From: Oscillospiraceae bacterium
GTDB taxonomy: Bacteria > Bacillota > Clostridia > Oscillospirales > WRJC01
Reading direction: 5' to 3'
NCBI GenBank assembly: GCA_009777355.1
Contig: WRMA01000009.1
Location: forward strand, 1 to 36,979
Length of the DNA: 36,979 bases
The position numbers were made by a program, and so were the translations under genes. Shown here one piece after another: positions 1 through 36,845 of the stretch. Below the pieces are notes generated by a model. That model saw only the letters and a program-made list of their open reading frames with translations, did not search any database and was not told where the DNA came from. Position 1 is the stretch's first letter; each line of letters starts with the position of its first letter.

Positions 1-87
1 CTCCGCCGTTTTATTAATTCCCCTCCGCGGAGGGGTGCCGACGAAGTCGGCGGGGTGGTCGTATTTCGGTTTTGAAAGAGGTCTATT
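1..87. repeat. Left copy of an 87-bp direct repeat containing half of a palindromic element (family B)
   Basis: This stretch is nearly identical to 657-743; two differences are visible (C/T in the palindrome and G/A before the final GGTCTATT). It holds a double hairpin at 16-59: a CCCCTCC/GGAGGGG stem followed by a CCGACGAAGTCGG stem and a GGGGTGGT end. The window opens in the middle of this element, so its other arm should lie just outside. The two direct copies bracket the DUF559 gene. Confidence 0.85.
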
Positions 88-111
88 GAAGAAAATGATT
101 ATTCGGCGCGA

Positions 112-510
112 TTATTCCCCTCCGTGGAGGGGCGCCCGAAGGGCGGGGTGGTTTTGCAGCATTTCCATAACGTCAGACACTCGGGTTAAGACGTCAACAG
201 CCTGTATATGAATTGTTTGCAATCCTAATTTCCCCAAATAAATATCGCGTTCTTTGTCATATTCTTCTTTAATATCATGTGAACTGCCGTCTATTTCAAT
301 AACGGCGCCGCAATTTATGCAGAAAAAATCTACAATATAGTTTCCTATGATTTTTTGCCGGTCAAAGTCATATCCCTTGAAATTTTTGTTACGAAATTGC
401 TTCCATAACAAAACTTCGCATAAATTTCCCGCTTTCCGTAATTCTTTGGCTCTTTCACGGAGATTTGGATTATACGGTAATTGTGAATATATACCTGCAT
501 ATCTACGCAT
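112..510 (-). CDS. DUF559 family endonuclease-like protein (Vsr-like PD-(D/E)XK fold)
   Basis: A 132-residue protein of the DUF559 family, which is related to very-short-patch-repair type nucleases; the biological role is not established. The family signature is visible: an N-terminal segment with LRKAGNLCEVLLWK (residues 24-37), then the core IVDFFC around residue 61 and VIEIDGSSH around 70-78. These supply the acidic residues (D61, E72, D74) and the H78 expected for the active site. The last dozen codons (NHPALRAPLHGGE) are read from palindromic-repeat DNA, so the native C-terminus has been replaced or extended by repeat sequence. The ATG at 510 touches the upstream repeat arm (509-553) and the 3' end runs into another arm (113-156) in the opposite orientation. 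The gene is therefore framed by inverted arms of the same family. Family assignment is secure; the link to repeat mobility is inference. Confidence 0.85.
   Translation of the reverse strand: MRRYAGIYSQLPYNPNLRERAKELRKAGNLCEVLLWKQFRNKNFKGYDFDRQKIIGNYIVDFFCINCGAVIEIDGSSHDIKEEYDKERDIYLGKLGLQTIHIQAVDVLTRVSDVMEMLQNHPALRAPLHGGE
113..156. repeat. Family B palindromic arm, left of the DUF559 gene
   Basis: A CCCCTCC/GGAGGGG stem, then a GCGCCCGAAGGGC-type stem, then GGGGTGGTTTT. It is oriented with the GGTGGT end towards the DUF559 gene and overlaps the last codons of that gene. It is the inverted counterpart of 509-553. Confidence 0.8.
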
Positions 511-553
511 GAAACCACCCCGGCGCTTCGCGCCGCCCCTCCGCGGAGGGGAA
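509..553. repeat. Family B palindromic arm, right of the DUF559 gene (inverted relative to 113-156)
   Basis: It begins with the complement of the GGTGGTTTC end next to the DUF559 start codon. A GGCGCTTCGCGCC stem and the CCCCTCCGCGGAGGGG stem follow. With 113-156 it forms a terminal-inverted-repeat-like frame around a single gene. Confidence 0.8.
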
Positions 554-594
554 TTATTTCTTCTCTATAAATTATTTATTAAACTTCTTTCAAA

Positions 595-715
595 ACCACC
601 CCGTCACGCCGCTTACGCGCCGCGCCACCCCTCCACAGAGGGGAATTTTCGCTCAACTCCGCCGTTTTATTAATTCCCCTCCGTGGAGGGGTGCCGACGA
701 AGTCGGCGGGGTGGT
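595..715. mobile_element. Complete family B MITE-like element (ACCACCCCG ... CGGGGTGGT ends)
   Basis: A 121-bp element whose outer ends are inverted (ACCACCCC and GGGGTGGT). Each arm holds two hairpins, joined by an AT-rich linker with GGGGAATTTTCGCTCAAC. The same linker start and arm order occur in the insert within gyrB (24869-25021). It has no coding capacity. No clear target duplication was found at its flanks. Confidence 0.75.
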
Positions 716-743
716 CGTATTTCGGTTTTGAAAAAGGTCTATT
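657..743. repeat. Right copy of the 87-bp direct repeat
   Basis: Matches 1-87 and comprises the right half of the 595-715 element plus about 28 bp of shared flank ending in GGTCTATT. Because the shared flank continues past the element end, this is a segmental duplication and not merely two insertions of the same element. Confidence 0.8.
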
Positions 744-14830: not shown

Positions 14831-14938
14831 CCCCCCTTGTTAAAGGGGGGATGTCACGAAGTGACAGGGGGGATTACGGGAAGAACCGCATAAATCCCCC
14901 CTGCGGCTCCGCCGCTTCCCCCCTTTAACAAGGGGGGC
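14831..14938. repeat. Family C palindromic element (CCCCCTT / AAGGGGG)
   Basis: The left arm is CCCCCCTTGTTAAAGGGGGG followed by GTCACGAAGTGAC and GGGGGGATT. The right arm is AATCCCCCCTGCGGCTCCGCCGC followed by a CCCCCCTTT/AAGGGGGG stem. It has the same two-hairpin design as families A and B. It abuts the rnmV stop codon and may act as a terminator or mRNA-end structure there. Confidence 0.85.
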
Positions 14939-17637: not shown

Positions 17638-20331
17638 TTACTCCTCCAAATCTATTATTTCCCCAACTTCTTCTGTCTCCTCTATATCTTCCTCAGGCTC
17701 GGGCGCGACTCTTATCACCGATTTTATCGACACCCCGTCTCCCGTCCTCATGACTTTTACCCCGCTGCCCGCTCTGTTCGCGAACACTCTTATCCCAGAT
17801 ACCGGAGTTCTTATCATCGTTCCGTCGTCCGTTATTATCATAATGTCGTCGCTCTCGTATACCGATAAAACCCCAACGAGTTCCCCCGTCTTCTCTGTGA
17901 TTCTGTGACACGCCATGCCTTTGCCGCCCCTGTTGCGCCTTGTGAACTTCTCAAATTCGCAGCGTTTCCCGAATCCGTTTTTCGTCACGGTCATAACGGT
18001 CAATATATTATCCCCGACCGTTATTACTTCGTCTTCGTCAGGATTTTCTTCAACTTCTTCTGTTTCTTCCGGTTCGTCAAGATTTTCGTCAGTATCGATT
18101 TCGAGAATTTCTTCGTCGCCGTCTGTATCAAGCGGCGCGTAGGGGTCGCCGCGCCCTGCGGTTTCTTCGCCGTCCGTGTCAAGCGGCGCGCCGGGGGCAT
18201 CGCGCCCCATACCCGGATTTACAGTCACTCCCGCGATATTCGCGCCGTCCGCGAGCCTTAACCCGCGTACTCCTCCCGATGTCCTGCCCATCACCCTTAC
18301 GGCGCTCTCGTGGATTTTCAAGCCCTGTCCGTTCGTCGCCGCGAGCAGTATTTCGTCGTCGCCGTTCGTCTTTACGACGAACGCGAGCTCATCCCCGTCG
18401 TTTAGTTTAATCGCAAGCTTACCGTTTCTGTTTATTTTTGAACAGACAGAAACTTTCATGCGTTTTATTACGCCTTTTTTCGTCACCATGACAAGATAGC
18501 CGTTGTCCGTTTCGGGCACGGGAATTATAGTCGAGACTGTCTCGCCCTCGCCCATTTCTAACAGATTCACTATATTCATGCCTTTCGAAGTCCTCGAAGA
18601 CACCGGGATTTCATAGCATTTTTTCCCGTAGACTTTGCCTTTATTAGTAAACATAAGCATAATATCATGGGAATTTGACGCGAAAAGAGACGTAACTATA
18701 TCGTCTTCTTTCGTTTTCATCGCCGTTATGCCCTTGCCGCCTCTTCTCTGCGCCTGATAGACGCTCGCGGGCTGACGTTTTATATAACCCGCCTCCGTCA
18801 TAGAAACAACGCACTCTTCCCGTTCGATTAAATCCTCGAAGAAAATTTCTGTCTCGTTCGGCAAAATCTCTGTTCGTCTGTCGTCTCCGTACCTGCGTTT
18901 AATCTCGAGTAAATCAGTCTTGATAATCTGATTAATAGAGTTTCTGTCGGTTTCCGCGAGAATATTGCTAAGCTCTGCGATTAATTTATTTAACCTCTCT
19001 AATTCTTCTATAATCTTCTCGATTTCAAGCCCGGATAATCTTCCCAGCGGCAGCTCTACTATCGACTGCCCCTGAACGTCCGAAAACTCGAAGCGTTCTA
19101 TCAACGCGGCTTTCGCTTCCCCGACCGTCTTGTTCGCCCTGATTATTCTGATTACTTCGTCAATATTATCTATCGCGATTTTCAAACCCTCGTATATATG
19201 CGCCCTCTGCTTCGCTTTTTCCAAATCGAATTTTATTCTTCTCGTTATAATCTCGACTTGATGCTCGACATAATAACCGACCATCTGTTTCAGATTTAAT
19301 ATTTTCGGCTCGCCGTTTACCAGAGAGACCATGTTCATCGCGAAAGTATCCTGAAGCTGCGAGAATTTATATAATTGATTTAAAATAACAGTCGGATTCA
19401 CGTCTCTGCGTAAATCTATAACAATCCGCATACCCGCCCTGCCGCTCTCGTCTCGAATATCAGTAATCCCGTCGATTCTCCTGTCTTTGACTAAATCCGC
19501 GATACTCTCCACTAAATTCGCCTTATTCACCTGATAGGGAATCTCCGTCACTATTATTCTGTGGGTTTTTTTATACTCTTCTATATCTGCCTTTGCCCTG
19601 ACTAAAACCCTGCCTCTTCCCGTCATATAGCCTTCTATTATTCCCGCCGTGCCGTAAATCGTCGCGTTAGTGGGAAAATCAGGACCTTTTATATGCTGCA
19701 TAAGCTCAAAAATACTAATCTCCGGATTATCTATATACGCAATAACCCCGTCTATGACTTCCCCTAAATTATGCGGCGGTATATTCGTAGCCATAACGAC
19801 CGCGATACCCATAGAACCGTTGACTAATAAATTAGGGAATCTCGACGGCAGAACGACCGGTTCCTGATGTTTATTATCGAAATTCGGCGCCATATCGACA
19901 ACATTTTTCTCTATATCAGTAACCATTTCTTCGGCGAGTCTGTTCATTCTCGCCTCCGTATATCTCTGCGCCGCCGCTCCGTCTCCGTCAACGTTCCCGA
20001 AGTTCCCCTGCCCGTCAATCAACGGGTAACGCAGCGAAAAAGGCTGCGCCATCCTGACGAGGGAATCGTAAATCGACTGGTCTCCGTGCGGGTGATAATG
20101 CCCCATAACGTAACCGACCGTCGTCGCGGATTTTCTGTAAGGCTTGTTATAAGTCAAGCCGTCCTCGTACATGGCGTAAATAATACGCCGGTGAATAGGC
20201 TTTAATCCGTCTCTGACGTCGGGCAGAGCCCTCGACGTTATGACCGACATCGCGTATTCCAGAAAAGATTTTTTCATTTCCCTGTCGATTTCAACGTCGA
20301 CAATCTTTTGGTTTTCGTAACTTGAATCCAC
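17638..20331 (-). CDS. gyrA: DNA gyrase subunit A, with an acidic repeat-derived insert
   Basis: The subunit that breaks and rejoins DNA during supercoiling. At 897 residues it is longer than the usual 800-850. The catalytic Tyr is Y124 in AAQRYTEARM. The quinolone-pocket helix reads HPHGDQSIYDSLVR, with Gln at the position of E. coli Ser83. The GyrA-box is QRRGGKGI, confirming gyrase and not topoisomerase IV. Within the C-terminal propeller, residues about 706-775 form an extra acidic segment. It contains two copies of a GR..P.APLDTDG(E/D)E module encoded by GTAGGG-family repeat DNA, then a Glu/Asp-rich run. The start is a GTG at 20331 with AAGGAG 10 bp upstream. Two small genes follow immediately. 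Confidence 0.97.
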   Translation of the reverse strand: MDSSYENQKIVDVEIDREMKKSFLEYAMSVITSRALPDVRDGLKPIHRRIIYAMYEDGLTYNKPYRKSATTVGYVMGHYHPHGDQSIYDSLVRMAQPFSLRYPLIDGQGNFGNVDGDGAAAQRYTEARMNRLAEEMVTDIEKNVVDMAPNFDNKHQEPVVLPSRFPNLLVNGSMGIAVVMATNIPPHNLGEVIDGVIAYIDNPEISIFELMQHIKGPDFPTNATIYGTAGIIEGYMTGRGRVLVRAKADIEEYKKTHRIIVTEIPYQVNKANLVESIADLVKDRRIDGITDIRDESGRAGMRIVIDLRRDVNPTVILNQLYKFSQLQDTFAMNMVSLVNGEPKILNLKQMVGYYVEHQVEIITRRIKFDLEKAKQRAHIYEGLKIAIDNIDEVIRIIRANKTVGEAKAALIERFEFSDVQGQSIVELPLGRLSGLEIEKIIEELERLNKLIAELSNILAETDRNSINQIIKTDLLEIKRRYGDDRRTEILPNETEIFFEDLIEREECVVSMTEAGYIKRQPASVYQAQRRGGKGITAMKTKEDDIVTSLFASNSHDIMLMFTNKGKVYGKKCYEIPVSSRTSKGMNIVNLLEMGEGETVSTIIPVPETDNGYLVMVTKKGVIKRMKVSVCSKINRNGKLAIKLNDGDELAFVVKTNGDDEILLAATNGQGLKIHESAVRVMGRTSGGVRGLRLADGANIAGVTVNPGMGRDAPGAPLDTDGEETAGRGDPYAPLDTDGDEEILEIDTDENLDEPEETEEVEENPDEDEVITVGDNILTVMTVTKNGFGKRCEFEKFTRRNRGGKGMACHRITEKTGELVGVLSVYESDDIMIITDDGTMIRTPVSGIRVFANRAGSGVKVMRTGDGVSIKSVIRVAPEPEEDIEETEEVGEIIDLEE
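18130..18215. repeat. Two repeat-derived modules inside gyrA
   Basis: Read on + they run GTATCAAGCGGCGCG..GGGGTCGCCGCGCCC and GTGTCAAGCGGCGCG..GGGGGCATCGCGCCCC, with CTTCGCCGTCC between them. The GGCGCG(T/C)..GGGGTCGCCGCGCCC core is the arm of the GTAGGG/CCCTAC family. On the coding strand each gives GR..P.APLDTDG(E/D)E. Confidence 0.8.
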
Positions 20332-20977: not shown

Positions 20978-22027
20978 TTAATTATTAACTCTCTCCCGCA
21001 TCGCCTCGACCTCTTCAACCGCTGCGAACTGCGTGCCCGGCTTCGTCACTTTTGCCGCGGACGCCGCCACCGCATATCCCAGCGCGCTTTCGGCAACCCT
21101 CGCCCTTCGGACTCCCCCTTCACGGAAGGGGGCTGAAAAATCCCCCGGGAGTCCGAAGTAAACCATACAGAACGCAGCCAGAAACGTATCCCCCGCGCCG
21201 GTGAATCCCCTGACTTCGACTTTCGGCGCGTTTTTGTAAAACGCTCCCTCCGATCCGCAGTATAACGCGCCGTATTCTCCCAGCGTGCATAAAACTATTA
21301 CCCCGGTTTTATTATAAATCTTCTTCGCTTCTTCTTCGATTTCTTCTAGAACTTCGTCAAATCCGGACGGCGCGTCGGGGTCGCCGCGCCCTACAAAATT
21401 ATTCCCGAGTTCAAATTTTTTTCCCGTATACTGTTCAAGCTCAAACTGATTCGGCTTTATCATATACGGCTTGTTTTTATTTTCCATGCATAGTCTTAAC
21501 GCTTCCCCGTCGCAGTCCAGAATAAATTTCGTCCTATTATCTTTATCCAAATCTATAATATCCCTGTATATACTCTTCTCTATTCCCGGAGGAACGGAAC
21601 CTCCCATAAAAAATAAATCGACCCCGTCTGATATTATATTCTTGATTTTATTTAACAAATCCTGTTTTTCGTCAGGATTTATTAAACCTCCCGGTTCGTT
21701 AAATTCCGTCGGTTCGCCGTATTTATCTATGACTTTTATATTTAATCTTGTATCGCATTTCGTCTCCGTAAAATCATGTTTGATTTTATACGGCGCTAAT
21801 AATTTTTTAAATAACTTCCCGTTATTATTCTCTTCCCCTCCTCCGACGAACCCGTATGCGGTCGATTCCGCGCCGAAAATTTTCAGGACGCACGAGACGT
21901 TCGTGCCTTTTCCCCCATGGGTTAAAACGGACGGCGAAACCGCTCTGTTAAGTTTACCCGCCCCGACGTTCTCGCAGTAAACCGTCCTGTCGAGCGCGGG
22001 ATTCAACGTAAGCGTCGCGATTCTCAT
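20978..22027 (-). CDS. 1-phosphofructokinase-like PfkB kinase with two repeat-encoded inserts
   Basis: A FruK/LacC-type kinase that phosphorylates sugar monophosphates. It begins MRIATLTLNPALDRTVYCEN, the hallmark of this subfamily. It has HGGKGTNVSCVLKIFGA (signature 1) and GFTGAGDTFLAAF with catalytic D280 (signature 2). The protein has 349 residues against roughly 305-315 usual, and the excess comes partly from two insertions of repeat DNA. Residues 211-221 (FVGRGDPDAPS) are read from a GTAGGG-family arm, and residues about 296-313 (DFSAPFREGGVRRARVAE) from a CCCCCTT/AAGGGGG-type stem. The second lies between the active-site helix and the next helix. Whether both inserts are tolerated is unknown. 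No PTS genes are visible nearby. Confidence 0.88.
   Translation of the reverse strand: MRIATLTLNPALDRTVYCENVGAGKLNRAVSPSVLTHGGKGTNVSCVLKIFGAESTAYGFVGGGEENNNGKLFKKLLAPYKIKHDFTETKCDTRLNIKVIDKYGEPTEFNEPGGLINPDEKQDLLNKIKNIISDGVDLFFMGGSVPPGIEKSIYRDIIDLDKDNRTKFILDCDGEALRLCMENKNKPYMIKPNQFELEQYTGKKFELGNNFVGRGDPDAPSGFDEVLEEIEEEAKKIYNKTGVIVLCTLGEYGALYCGSEGAFYKNAPKVEVRGFTGAGDTFLAAFCMVYFGLPGDFSAPFREGGVRRARVAESALGYAVAASAAKVTKPGTQFAAVEEVEAMRERVNN
21361..21395. repeat. GTAGGG-family arm inside the FruK-like gene
   Basis: Contains GGACGGCGCGTCGGGGTCGC followed by CGCGCCCTAC, one arm of the GTAGGG/CCCTAC family. In frame on the minus strand it encodes VGRGDPDAPSG. The flanking codons resume the kinase sequence without a frameshift. 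Confidence 0.85.
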
Positions 22028-22056: not shown

Positions 22057-22596
22057 TTATAACTTCAAATACCGTAAATCAAATTCTATATTATCTTTGG
22101 TTTTCAAAACGTCGTTTAAATTCTTATCCTCTGTTCTTTTATCTCCGACCCAACATTCCACGATATTTGAATGTTGTTCTATATACCAATGTTCCGTTAT
22201 TGAACTCGCGGCGTAAAGATATTTGATAAACTCCCTGTCATATAAACCGTTTGATTTAGACCAGACCTCTATTATTAAATCCGGCTTGCCTACTACCCGC
22301 GTTTCATTTTTATTTATTAAAAAATCATTGTCTTTTACGAAATGCATATAGTCCGGCGTCACCAATTCTAAATCGTTCAATATTTCTTCCATAAATTCGC
22401 TCTTGTTATCTATACTTTTCAAATCGATTAAACTGCATGATTCCGGGTGTTTTTTATTCCCCGTATAAACCAGACTCGCCGATTCGGAAAAATGAATCAG
22501 TTCTTTCCTCTCAAATAAACCGTTAATCGACTTCGCCGCGTATTCCAGTAACCGTCTGTGTCTTGCCGTCGAACCCATTTCCATAATATTACTCAT
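22057..22596 (-). CDS. Uma2/DUF820 family protein (divergent, shorter)
   Basis: A 179-residue protein related to the Uma2 (DUF820) family, a PD-(D/E)XK-like putative nuclease fold of unknown role. The recognisable core is VVGKPDLIIEVWSKSNGLYDREFIKYLYAASSITEHWYIE. This matches the family pattern PDL..E..S......D...K...Y...GV.EYW..D, with an Ala-Ser replacement near the end. The N-terminal half (MSNIMEMGSTARHRRLLEYA) does not show the usual pattern. It lies 22 bp downstream of a second Uma2 gene. The pair probably arose by duplication and divergence. Confidence 0.75.
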   Translation of the reverse strand: MSNIMEMGSTARHRRLLEYAAKSINGLFERKELIHFSESASLVYTGNKKHPESCSLIDLKSIDNKSEFMEEILNDLELVTPDYMHFVKDNDFLINKNETRVVGKPDLIIEVWSKSNGLYDREFIKYLYAASSITEHWYIEQHSNIVECWVGDKRTEDKNLNDVLKTKDNIEFDLRYLKL

Positions 22597-22618: not shown

Positions 22619-23218
22619 TTACTCTATATTATCGAAAACGTCGGCGATTTCTATTATTAAATTGTCGCCGAAAACCGACGTTTTAAACGACGTCGTCTCC
22701 ATTCTCTTTATTTCTTCCTCATCTCCGATTCTCTTTATTTCCGCTATATCGTCCTCGTCGAATATCGTGTAGTTATTATCGAGTATATATTTACCGTCTT
22801 TTAAAATATACACTTTTATCGTTTTCCAGTTAGTATCGACTATCCAGTATTCTTTTACCCCGTGTTTCTCATATAAATCTTTCTTCTCGGTCATATCTCT
22901 TGTCTGCGTTCTCGGGGATAGAATCTCGACTATTAAATCCGGCGCGCCCTCTATCGCGTTCTTTTTGATTTTAGACGGGTCGCATACGATTTTTAAATCC
23001 GGCAGAACTTTATTATCCTCGTCGAATATAACTTTCATATTCTCACCGAATACTTGGCATTTTTTCCCTTTTAAAAAATTCATGAAAATATTCAATATAT
23101 TGCCAAAAACATAATTGTGGTTCGCCGACGTACCCGCCATTAAATAGATTTTGCCGTTTAAAATTTCCATTCTCGTTTCTCTGATTAATTCTCTCCGCTC
23201 AAGTTTTAATACCGACAT
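22619..23218 (-). CDS. Uma2/DUF820 family putative endonuclease
   Basis: A 199-residue Uma2 family protein. Visible landmarks are EILNGKIYLMAGTSANHNYVFGNI (the first helix and strands with the conserved His), VLPDLKIVCDP, GAPDLIVEILSPRTQTRDMTEKKDLYEKHGVKEYWIVD and a terminal IEIADVF. The acidic and Lys residues expected at a PD-(D/E)XK site (PDL, E.L, K) are all present, so it may be active. The family is expanded in cyanobacteria and some Clostridia, and its role is not established. It is followed closely by the divergent relative at 22057-22596. Confidence 0.88.
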   Translation of the reverse strand: MSVLKLERRELIRETRMEILNGKIYLMAGTSANHNYVFGNILNIFMNFLKGKKCQVFGENMKVIFDEDNKVLPDLKIVCDPSKIKKNAIEGAPDLIVEILSPRTQTRDMTEKKDLYEKHGVKEYWIVDTNWKTIKVYILKDGKYILDNNYTIFDEDDIAEIKRIGDEEEIKRMETTSFKTSVFGDNLIIEIADVFDNIE

Positions 23219-23578: not shown

Positions 23579-25840
<2,262 letters not shown>

Positions 25841-29072: not shown

Positions 29073-29302
29073 CACGAGTTACACAGTTGACGTATTTACT
29101 ATCTTTGCCCTCTTTTTTAAAGAGGGTGCCGTCCGCAGACGGCGGGTGTTTAAGCCCCCTTTGTGAAAGGGGGTGGCACGAAGTGACGGGGGATTGCGTT
29201 TCCGTACGTGACGTCAAATTTCAAATCCCCCTGCGACTTCGTCGCTTTCCCCCTTTTTAAAAGGGGGCTTTTCCGCAAATTTGAACAACTGTGAAATCCG
29301 TG
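29073..29302. mobile_element. Mosaic family A/C MITE-like element in the oriC spacer
   Basis: The outer ends CACGAG..TTACACAGTTG and CAACTGTGAAAT.CCGTG are imperfect inverted repeats of the family A type. The left arm is family A (CCCTCTTT..AAAGAGGG, CCGTCCGCAGACGG, GGGTGTTT). From 29151 it turns into a family C element (CCCCCTTTGTGAAAGGGGG .. TTTAAAAGGGGG). The flanks ATTTATATTT and TATTATATTT match at 8 of 10 positions, a decayed target duplication of the length seen at 13753. Non-coding. Confidence 0.78.
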
Positions 29303-31798: not shown

Positions 31799-33007
31799 CT
31801 ATCCGGTATCAACGCTGCGTTCCCCGATTTTACGCAGAATCTCCTCGCCGCGCTCGCCTTCGGCAAGCATCGGCTTAAAATTGTTTCTCGAAAAATTCGA
31901 CGTGACGAATATCGGTATAAGATTTATTTCGCTCTCCGTTATTTCTTCCCCGTATAAAACGAATCTCTGCTGTAATATTACGCTCGTTCTGTTCTCTATA
32001 TCTGATATGACGTTTCCGTCGAAGATAAAATTTCCCAGCGAATATATTATATATCTGCCGTTATATTCTTCTATTCCCTGAAGTACGTGGGGATGATGGC
32101 CGATAACTAAATCCGCGCCGTTGTCAATCGCGAATCTTCCCATCGCGGCCTGACCCGCGCTTGCGATAACCGCGTCCATGCTTCCCCAGTGAAACGAAAC
32201 GATTTTTAACTCGGCGCCGTTCTCTTCGAGTTCTTCGAGAGCGGCTTTTACCTCGCCCGTTCTGTGTTCGCCGATAAAACCCGCGAACCCGACTTTTACG
32301 CCGTTGATTTCTTCGATTAATATTTTATTGTTCCCGAAATAACCAATCCCGGCCGAATCCAACGCCCCGACAGTATCGTCGTAACCCTCCTGCGAATAAT
32401 CGAACGTATGGTTATTCGCTAAATTTACGGCGTTTATTCCCGCCGCGGTAATTATACCCGTATATTCTGAATAGCCTTTGTAACTGTATTGTCTGTCGAG
32501 CCTTAAATCCGGGTCGTCGTTATCGCTTAGAACGCACTCGAGATTCGCTATGGTATAATCGCTTTCTTCTATAAAAATATGCCGTATATTCTCGCAGAAA
32601 TATTCAGGCCCGTATAAATCGTAATATTCGTAAAAAGAAAAAGAATAAGGCTTGATATAATTGCTCGCGAGGGTAAAATCGCCGACCGCGCTTATTGTAA
32701 TCTCCCTCGGGTGTTTTTTCTTGAGATATATAACGGGTTCGGGTTCTGTTTCGGGGTTTGACTCGGGTTCAAACGTTGTCGTAGGGCGCGTCGACCCCGA
32801 CGCGCCGCCTGATTTAATCCTATTATACGGCGCGTCAGGGTCGCCGCGCCCTACGATTGCAACGCGGGTTTGCGGCGCGTAAATCCTATTATACGGCGCG
32901 TCGGGGTCGCCGCGCCCTACGATTGCAACGCGGGTTTGCGGCATATAAAAAAACACGCACGCCGACGCGAACAGAAAACATATAAAATATTTAAAAATAA
33001 TTTTCAT
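31799..33007 (-). CDS. CapA family surface protein (poly-gamma-glutamate synthesis type) with repeat-encoded tandem
   Basis: A 402-residue exported metallophosphoesterase-like CapA/PgsA protein. It has an N-terminal signal or anchor (MKIIFKYFICFLFASACVFF). The catalytic-type motifs are ITISAVGDFTLA, IANLECVLSD, AVNLANNHTFDYS, IVSFHWG and VIGHHPHVLQGIE, and YSLGNFIFDG closes the domain. Residues 23-66 are two copies of a 22-residue unit (APQTRVAIVGRGDPDAPYNRI type) encoded by GTAGGG-family DNA. A further arm encodes GGASGSTRPTT, followed by a Pro/Glu linker (EPESNPETEPEP). The inserts lie between the anchor and the domain, where extra length is tolerated. The enzyme activity and wall partner are unknown. 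Confidence 0.88.
   Translation of the reverse strand: MKIIFKYFICFLFASACVFFYMPQTRVAIVGRGDPDAPYNRIYAPQTRVAIVGRGDPDAPYNRIKSGGASGSTRPTTTFEPESNPETEPEPVIYLKKKHPREITISAVGDFTLASNYIKPYSFSFYEYYDLYGPEYFCENIRHIFIEESDYTIANLECVLSDNDDPDLRLDRQYSYKGYSEYTGIITAAGINAVNLANNHTFDYSQEGYDDTVGALDSAGIGYFGNNKILIEEINGVKVGFAGFIGEHRTGEVKAALEELEENGAELKIVSFHWGSMDAVIASAGQAAMGRFAIDNGADLVIGHHPHVLQGIEEYNGRYIIYSLGNFIFDGNVISDIENRTSVILQQRFVLYGEEITESEINLIPIFVTSNFSRNNFKPMLAEGERGEEILRKIGERSVDTG
32781..32950. repeat. GTAGGG-family repeat and 66-bp tandem inside capA
   Basis: A full GTAGGG...CCCTAC element (32781-32854) overlaps a direct tandem of 66 bp: 32819-32884 and 32885-32950, each beginning CCTATTATACGGCGCGTC. Sixty-six is a multiple of three, so both units stay in the capA frame. 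The second unit differs at only a few positions, indicating a recent duplication. Confidence 0.9.
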
Positions 33008-35172: not shown

Positions 35173-35325
35173 ATGAATGATGAAAAAAAGAAAGCAGATT
35201 TACCAAAAGAAGTTCAAATACAAATGATGAAGTTCTTCCTTAAAACCTCAATCCCTAAAAGCATTAAAAACAAAAACAAGCCTCTTTCTGAAAAATCAGA
35301 ATCAGAAGGAGAGAAAGCACAATGA
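35173..35325 (+). CDS. Small charged protein coupled to the recombinase
   Basis: A 50-residue, Lys-rich protein (MNDEKKKADLPKEVQIQMMK and onwards to KSESEGEKAQ). Its TGA overlaps the ATG of the recombinase (ATGA), indicating coupled translation. No named family is recognised. Position and composition suggest an accessory factor of the element, such as a directionality or DNA-binding helper, but this is inference. It was assigned because the frame is open from the ATG and ends exactly in the overlap. A possible hairpin or operator (CTAATA...TATTAG) lies upstream at 35129-35157. Confidence 0.7.
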   Translation: MNDEKKKADLPKEVQIQMMKFFLKTSIPKSIKNKNKPLSEKSESEGEKAQ

Positions 35326-36845
35326 GAACAGGAATCTATGTTAGGGTGTCAACAGAGGAGCAGGCACAAGAGGGCTATTCAATTCGGGCGCAACAGGAAA
35401 AATTGGCAGACTATGCACGTTTAAAAGATTGGTCGGTCTATAAGGTTTACTGCGATGAGGGTATCAGCGGAAAAAATGTAACGGAACGCCCCGCAGTTAA
35501 TGAAATGATAGACGACATTGAAAAAGGTAGAATTAATAATGTTTTAATATTTAAAATAGACAGGCTCACAAGAAGTATAACAGACCTTGTGAATTTTATT
35601 GAATTGTTTAACGAGTATGATTGTTGCTTTAATTCGTTCAGCGAAAATATAGACACGCATACGGCAACAGGCAGAATGTTTATAAAATTCATGGGTATTA
35701 TTGCCGAATTTGAACGCGAGAATATATCCGAGCGCTCAAAACTTGGGTTTGAACGGAAAGTAAAAGAGGGTTATACTTTAGCAACCAGAACGGCAAGTTA
35801 TGGATATGATAGAACACCGGGCAACAAGGTACAGCAAATCAATAAATATGAGGCGCAAATTGTGCTTGAAGTGTTTGACATGTTCGTAAATAAAAATATG
35901 GCGTACCTTGAAATAGCACAAAATTTAAACGAACGCAATATAAAAACTAAAGAGAAAGGGAAATGGCACTCGCGGTCAATTAAAAACATGCTCACTAATT
36001 GTAATCATGTTGGCAATGTTAGATATGCAACTAAAGACGAAAAAAGGAATTTTGAAGTTGAGGGCGTTCATGAGGCTATCGTTTCTAAAGAACTATACGA
36101 AGAAACGCAAGATTTGATTGAGAAAATAGCAGTCAAAAGTTATACGAAACGCCCAAAAGAAGAACATTATTATTCGGGTGTTTTGATATGTGATAAATGC
36201 GAGGGTAAACTTGTAACTCATGGGGATTATAAAGTTTTGGAAAACGGCGAAAGGGTAATAAAAGGTGGGTATCGTTGCAGTAATTATTTACGCAAAACAT
36301 GCAATGCAAGCAATGTATCACATAAAAATGCTGATTTAGCTTTTTCAGCTTATATCAATGACATTCCCGACTTTAACGCTATTGATGATGTGCAGATACA
36401 AGAAAAGGAAAACGAACAAAAAAGAGCCATTGAGGCGATAGCAGAGTTAAATAAAAAGTTAGATAAATTTGAAGAAAGAGAAAAGGAGATATTAAATTTA
36501 TACATAGCCCACACCATTAACTTTGAGAAGTATAACAAAATGCAGAATTCCATCAATGACGAAAAGGAGCATATTTTAGTAGAATTAGAACGGCTTGAAA
36601 ATACTGAAAGCGAAGATGTCGAAGTTGCCAAAAAGGACATAATTAAAAACCTAAAAGAAAATTGGGATTTGCTTGACAAGCTACAAAGACGGCAGTTTTT
36701 AATTAAATGCGTGGATAATATCCGCATAGTGAATGAAGTGCCAGAGGGTAAAAAGAAAGGCATAACAACAGTTACGGATATACAATTTAATAATCCATTG
36801 GAAAGGAGTAAAAGGAAAAGTATTAAAACTGCTTTATTAAGGTGA
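35322..36845 (+). CDS. Large serine recombinase (integrase of a mobile element)
   Basis: A 507-residue large serine recombinase. The resolvase domain starts MRTGIYVRVSTEEQAQEGYS, with the nucleophile Ser10 in RVST, and continues with KIDRLTRSITDL and FERENISERSK. The recombinase domain follows, with GYTLATRTASYGYDR and W.SRSIKNMLTN. A zinc ribbon (CDKCEGKL ... YRCSNY...C) and a long coiled coil (about 360-450) complete the architecture. Base composition and codon use differ from the host genes, with fewer GCG and TCG codons, consistent with transfer. It reads away from the truncated feoB, which lies about 330 bp upstream, so the junction near 34990 is the probable attachment site. Confidence 0.93.
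   Translation: MRTGIYVRVSTEEQAQEGYSIRAQQEKLADYARLKDWSVYKVYCDEGISGKNVTERPAVNEMIDDIEKGRINNVLIFKIDRLTRSITDLVNFIELFNEYDCCFNSFSENIDTHTATGRMFIKFMGIIAEFERENISERSKLGFERKVKEGYTLATRTASYGYDRTPGNKVQQINKYEAQIVLEVFDMFVNKNMAYLEIAQNLNERNIKTKEKGKWHSRSIKNMLTNCNHVGNVRYATKDEKRNFEVEGVHEAIVSKELYEETQDLIEKIAVKSYTKRPKEEHYYSGVLICDKCEGKLVTHGDYKVLENGERVIKGGYRCSNYLRKTCNASNVSHKNADLAFSAYINDIPDFNAIDDVQIQEKENEQKRAIEAIAELNKKLDKFEEREKEILNLYIAHTINFEKYNKMQNSINDEKEHILVELERLENTESEDVEVAKKDIIKNLKENWDLLDKLQRRQFLIKCVDNIRIVNEVPEGKKKGITTVTDIQFNNPLERSKRKSIKTALLR

Follow-up and report, generated by a model that had tools for sequence, protein, structure and literature searches.

Genome comparisons show that DUF559 genes are associated with inverted palindromic repeats, that the link is clade specific, with each DUF559 clade having its own repeat across many phyla, and that the arm-gene-arm unit is mobile; the encoded nuclease would be the mobilizing enzyme. 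The example analyzed here lies in the window, the whole 36,979-nucleotide stretch of DNA under study, which is the beginning of contig 9 of a 2.01-Mb genome in 143 contigs (G000). We consider it probable that positions 114 to 553 constitute an autonomous, very small mobile element, a solitary Vsr-fold nuclease gene between inverted hairpin-forming repeats, and that the genome's ∼90 further copies are non-autonomous derivatives. Less firmly, we lean toward the broader proposal that such units form a new transposable-element class: a solitary Vsr-fold nuclease, unaided by any known transposase or recombinase, would use staggered nicking to move both itself and REP-like hairpins, would leave long target duplications and in-frame insertions that are tolerated, and would occur in much of the bacterial tree, including Escherichia coli K-12 (YcjD).

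Many bacterial palindromic repeat families have no known mobilizing enzyme, and for the CGTC repeats this absence has been stated openly (PMC3733652). If true, the proposal adds to mobile DNA a class that lacks a classical transposase, and a partnership between DUF559 proteins and these repeats would give a role to a large “domain of unknown function.” The relevant features of the window are as follows.

1 to 87, forward strand: right half of a dispersed doublet that is truncated where the contig starts, with outer end GGTTTTGAAAGAGGTCTA; 98% identical to 657 to 743 and recurring elsewhere in the genome.
112 to 510, reverse strand: DUF559 (PF04480) gene for a Vsr-like/PD-(D/E)XK nuclease of 132 amino acids (Pfam E value, 4.9e-26).
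114 to 156, forward strand: 3' arm of the DUF559 gene, composed of ATT, the palindrome CCCCTCCGTGGAGGGG (117 to 132), the variable stem CGCCCGAAGGGCG, and the tail GGGGTGGTTTT.
512 to 553, reverse strand: 5' arm of the DUF559 gene, an inverted copy of the 3'-arm repeat, with tail (512 to 521), stem, and palindrome (536 to 551).
572 to 743, unstranded: complete non-autonomous doublet with outer ends AAACTTCTTTCAAAACC and GGTTTTGAAAAAGGTCTA and palindromes at 628 to 643 and 676 to 691, in the order tail-palindrome-spacer-palindrome-tail.
24868 to 25022, unstranded: doublet of the arm repeat, inserted in frame in gyrB (23579 to 25771, reverse strand), adding ∼40 residues relative to solved GyrB.

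The window repeat consists of a perfect palindrome, CCCCTCC-nn-GGAGGGG, followed by a second, variable stem and then by the tail GGGGTGGTTT. The tails of both arms are directed inward, toward the DUF559 gene; the right (5') arm adjoins the ATG (510 to 508), and repeat DNA of the 3' arm encodes the final 13 codons (NHPALRAPLHGGE). An earlier note on this DNA had described the gene as framed by inverted copies of one palindromic repeat, with its last dozen codons being repeat DNA, and both descriptions are borne out. When scored as the best local alignment of the left 300 nt with the reverse complement of the right 300 nt, the inverted arms of the window gene reach 76, against a 99.9th percentile of 32 among 2,648 control positions. 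DUF559 is the sole gene between the arms, and the unit of ∼0.45 kb contains no DDE, HUH, serine, or tyrosine recombinase. Within the window there is no match to the curated RNA families of Rfam. The exact pattern of the repeat occurs 88 times in the window genome, and the reversed control pattern occurs 0 times.

Membership of the window protein in DUF559, a Vsr-like PD-(D/E)XK family, is indicated by the profile match and by invariant E, Q, D, E, D, and H residues. An alignment of 12 divergent members (A1) contains 15 invariant columns, including E32, Q52, D61, E72, D74, and H78, and the catalytic residues are likely retained in the predicted nuclease. The same alignment matches the solved structures 3hrl (E value, 1.9e-25) and, weakly, 3r3p (E value, 0.035), and the predicted fold of the DUF559 protein is that of 3hrl.

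Smaller copies of the repeat are organized as doublets. Head-to-head doublets (tail-palindrome-about 28 nt-palindrome-tail) were present at all 20 sampled repeat sites of the window genome, many of them with outer ends TAGACYTCTTTCAAAACC, and the doublet at 572 to 743 agrees with the consensus of at least 18 others there. The earlier note had proposed that an 87-bp direct duplication (1 to 87 and 657 to 743) brackets the element. The repetition is real, but elsewhere in the genome the 87-nt unit is the right half of a doublet of ∼170 nt, and both window copies are such halves and form no bracket; the contig start therefore falls inside one doublet. The 87-bp duplication is thus ruled out as a target duplication. 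Doublet geometry varies between genomes; in the window genome, the doublets are oriented the other way round from the arms of the gene, so that these small copies may have arisen otherwise than by simple deletion from the gene unit.

The flanks of DUF559 genes are richer in inverted arms than other places in these genomes, which answers a question raised by the earlier note. Among same-order genomes, 26 of 38 DUF559 genes score at least 40, compared with 1 of 2,648 control positions, a count that is partly post hoc, as the arm score and thresholds were fixed after the first flanks had been inspected. For named genomes of many phyla, the corresponding figures at a score of at least 30 are 50 of 78 genes and 23 of 2,101 controls. 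When pooled, 81 of 114 DUF559 genes score at least 30, compared with 7 of 303 size-matched small open reading frames (∼30-fold; Fisher P = 2e-50), and 58 of 114 score at least 40, compared with 4 of 303 (P = 7e-34); these P values ignore kinship among genomes, an issue that affects the clade tests below less. The other 33 of the 114 genes have no inverted arms at a score of at least 30, and some carry direct ones.

A plasmid search returned only distant DUF559 proteins (<60% identity) and pointed to YcjD and to cases in Sphingomonas and Neisseria. The Sphingomonas plasmid gene (L134, 2965 to 3375) has near-perfect inverted arms and is located between sufB and sufC in an otherwise intact suf operon. 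The gene of Neisseria gonorrhoeae (L132, 3001 to 3351), a relative of the solved 3hrl, has direct flanking repeat copies containing CCTCTCCCTGTGGG.

The type of repeat follows the DUF559 clade. The window gene is a member of the LPYNP/DFDRQKIIGNYIVDF clade, which is present in five same-order genomes, and the window repeat (pattern A) is found in all five (88, 18, 3, 2, and 19 copies) and is absent from 93 others (P = 1.5e-8). The list of genomes with this clade was settled before the pattern scan, and the test across the phylum was prospective: among 399 genomes, pattern A is present in all four with a close (61 to 100%) relative of the window protein (89, 98, 12, and 73 copies) and in 2 of the remaining 395 (2 and 1 copies). 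Across phyla, among 50 named DUF559-bearing genomes, 22 of the 25 with the window clade carry it and none of the 25 with other clades do. The palindrome of the MDRKHNK clade (pattern B, CTCCCTTGTGTAAAGGGAG) occurs in 8 of 9 genomes with that clade and in 11 of 89 others, the latter mostly with 1 to 4 copies. Over 64 loci, arm similarity tracks protein similarity (Mantel r = 0.63; 0 of 5,000 permutations). DUF559 paralogues sharing one genome mostly have unlike arms, and in the window genome, the arms of the second DUF559 gene are of another kind, CCCTCTTTnnnAAAGAGGG with a GGGTGTTTT tail. The suggestion that repeats track DUF559 presence thus holds for the cognate clade and fails for DUF559 in general.

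Such agreement of repeat type with clade across phyla would be unexpected if the repeats were mobilized by another enzyme (a RAYT/Y1 or insertion sequence [IS] transposase acting in trans), with DUF559 a passenger that was caught between repeats and spreads along with them. We regard this explanation as unlikely. It could account for the type (i) doublets of the window genome, which carry extra outer inverted ends, TAGACYTCTTTCAAAACC, often adjoined by TA, as in an IS-borne miniature element (MITE), and for the persistence of repeats without DUF559, as in a few genomes with 1 to 8 copies and no cognate gene. Other doublets of the window genome, however, lack these outer ends, and in some genomes the only repeats are those of the gene itself: the sole two copies of pattern A in G010, and of the pattern B palindrome in G053 and G084, are the arms of the DUF559 gene. 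RAYT is also unsupported as a hidden driver, since Y1/RAYT is missing in several repeat-bearing genomes (no PF01797 match in G001, G010, G078, G042, G053, G059, or G084, and a weak one, 5.6e-4, in G000) and is present in many repeat-free ones.

Two further observations concern repeat types. In the MDRKHNK clade (L006, L007, L017, L018, L021, L022, and L032), the 5' arm is of a CCTCCC..GGTGGC subtype and the 3' arm is of a GCTCCC..GCTGTC subtype; this assignment is consistent across genomes, as if the element had separate left and right ends. A second palindromic family (CCCCCCTTnnnAAGGGGGG, stem, GGGGGGATT) is located in the window at 14831 to 14937, 21115 to 21131, and 29156 to 29266. Such arms are on neither DUF559 gene found in the window genome, while similar arms are on a gene (L044) of its congener G001, which matches a contig of a termite-gut Oscillospiraceae metagenome-assembled genome (MAG) (WRHM01000005). 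The cognate gene of this family may have been lost here or may lie in a portion of the window genome, itself a MAG, that is absent from the assembly.

E. coli K-12 YcjD is a DUF559 protein (NCBIfam PRK09767.1) encoded between sapF and fabI. Repeats built to the same general scheme follow its gene, and the end of YcjD is repeat coded (..LSPSPQPSP in the KE47 copy). The cognate repeat occupies 19 places in the median E. coli genome, and E. coli O157:H7 retains ∼15 repeats though its sapF-fabI locus lacks ycjD. The locus does not give a clean empty-site test, since the eef efflux operon lies there in strains without ycjD. YcjD has been assigned to the PD-(D/E)XK superfamily since 2005 and detected Vsr (PMC1189080). 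In a search of mainly open-access literature, we found no link to repeats in papers naming DUF559, ycjD, or COG2852, and earlier notice is possible. If true, the partnership of DUF559 with repeats would be testable in E. coli K-12, whose ycjD adjoins such repeats.

Mobility of the unit is evident in a relative of the window copy. At L009 and L010 (in G047 and G005), which belong to a DUF559 clade other than that of the window, the arm-gene-arm unit lies between direct duplications of 39 to 40 nt, the duplicated segment being the end of the upstream gene. The flanks, when joined with one copy of the duplication, give an uninterrupted match in the congeners G064 (90%) and G029 (84%). On this alignment, the congeners retain the resolved empty site and the insertion at L009/L010 has a 39-nt target duplication, the sole site so resolved and one of another clade than the window's; the two features of a transposable element, empty site and target duplication, are thus those of the relative, and the window copy itself lies outside this result. 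At L007, a 56-nt duplication of non-repeat DNA abuts the unit and is probably also a target duplication. DDE transposases typically generate target duplications of 2 to 14 bp. The duplications of 39 and 56 nt are unlike these in length and suggest widely staggered strand breaks. In Chryseobacterium, the DUF559 gene occupies a single orthologous locus in most species (six genomes), which makes the genus uninformative as a mobility test and indicates that some copies have long been in place.

EDxHD homing endonucleases spread group I introns, and DUF559 could be a homing-type nuclease that cuts sites lacking the repeat or element, with repair from an occupied copy spreading the element. The orthologous locus in the six Chryseobacterium genomes would fit such behavior, as would in-frame residence in conserved genes, with a queA site common to L067 and L068, and the link in sequence to the mobile-intron protein 3r3p, at an E value of only 0.035. 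We nevertheless judge homing to be quite unlikely: repeats and units occupy many unrelated sites per genome, which goes beyond allelic homing, the 39-bp target duplication at the resolved insertion is a mark of transposition-like joining, and no intron or intein is present.

Repeats and whole units also reside in frame within host genes, and the C-rich repeats contain no stop codon in the frames seen. In the region of the gyrB doublet, the encoded protein has about 50 residues in place of the 12 of solved GyrB. The DUF559 units in queA (L067 and L068) form an insert of ∼155 residues where solved QueA (1yy3), which aligns on either side, has 12. The units found within long host open reading frames are mostly in restriction-modification genes, namely, hsdR (L053), genes for Type ISP restriction enzymes (L055 and L127), methylases (L008, L057, and L069), and hsdS (L062 and L071). 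This concentration may reflect targeting, shared transfer, or true fusion, and some of the in-frame units may be fusions rather than insertions. They show a route for splicing nuclease domains into host proteins, e.g., QueA and restriction enzymes.

Palindromes downstream of genes can terminate transcription. This property, together with the several unit-holding host genes that belong to restriction-modification systems, would be in keeping with a nuclease that acts on the repeats without moving them (by hairpin processing, control of their spread, or defense), the arms being regulatory terminators or protected sites. Such a role seems very improbable to us as an explanation, as it leaves unaccounted for the insertion of a unit with a target duplication, the inverted arms at both ends, and the in-frame arms in host open reading frames, and a PADLOC defense search matched neither the window protein nor YcjD.

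Other features of the window were also recorded. A third repeat family, dispersed and protein coding, is read in frame as VGRGDPDAP-type peptides in the genes at 17638 to 20331 (gyrA), 20978 to 22027, and 31799 to 33007, with two copies in gyrA and two in the last of these. An adjacent pair of Uma2-family genes is located at 22057 to 22596 and 22619 to 23218. Near the contig end, a large serine recombinase with Resolvase and Recombinase domains is encoded at 35322 to 36845; its best NCBIfam match, CcrC, is below the cutoff.

The repeats have 62 distinct middle stems, which differ in sequence and length, and terminal pairing of at least 5 bp is found in 48% of them, compared with 4% after shuffling. 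Because the stems are varied yet paired well above shuffled expectation, the hairpin itself is constrained. We infer that the nuclease may recognize the folded arm, i.e., the constant palindrome and GGGGTGG tail, with a second stem constrained by pairing and not by sequence. It would then break strands at the arms and make staggered breaks at the target, and host repair or replication fill-in could convert these into target duplications of tens of bases. By analogy with the relation of REPINs to RAYTs, the other genome copies, single or in head-to-head doublets, would be non-autonomous derivatives of the unit.

The arrangement shares several features with REP/REPIN-RAYT systems: an autonomous gene flanked by inverted cognate palindromic repeats, a single-copy gene per type, many dispersed single or paired repeats, and inverted doublets with a short spacer, as at the sampled sites of the window genome. 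The earlier note had drawn this parallel, with a Vsr-like DUF559 protein as the partner, and it gains support from the flank enrichment, the clade tracking, and, in a relative, the empty site and 39-bp duplication. Unlike in REP/REPIN-RAYT systems, the gene encodes a Vsr-like nuclease (PF04480) and not a Y1 HUH enzyme, no GTAG tag was seen, RAYT is missing in several repeat-bearing genomes, the target duplication is long, and the whole unit can lie in frame within genes.

CGTC-tagged REPs, which are said to have no dedicated transposase (PMC3733652), are likewise abundant non-RAYT palindromes, some of them inside genes, but the repeats described here have GGGGTGG-type tails instead of CGTC and have a partner gene. 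Rickettsia palindromic elements are also placed in frame within protein genes; no associated gene has been described for them (PMC10969869), whereas the repeats described here move together with a nuclease gene. EDxHD homing endonucleases (I-Bth0305I, 3r3p) and Vsr belong by sequence to the same nuclease superfamily, but in place of residence in an intron, intein, or single allele, the gene here lies between dispersed repeats, and units with their own terminal repeats are dispersed to many unrelated loci. IS elements and their MITEs have inverted ends, target duplications, and non-autonomous copies in common with the unit, which differs in its ∼0.45-kb size, its target duplication of 39 (and probably 56) bp, and its lack of a DDE, HUH, serine, or tyrosine enzyme. 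By its enzyme, the unit falls outside REP/RAYT and the other families considered, while in function it resembles REP/RAYT.
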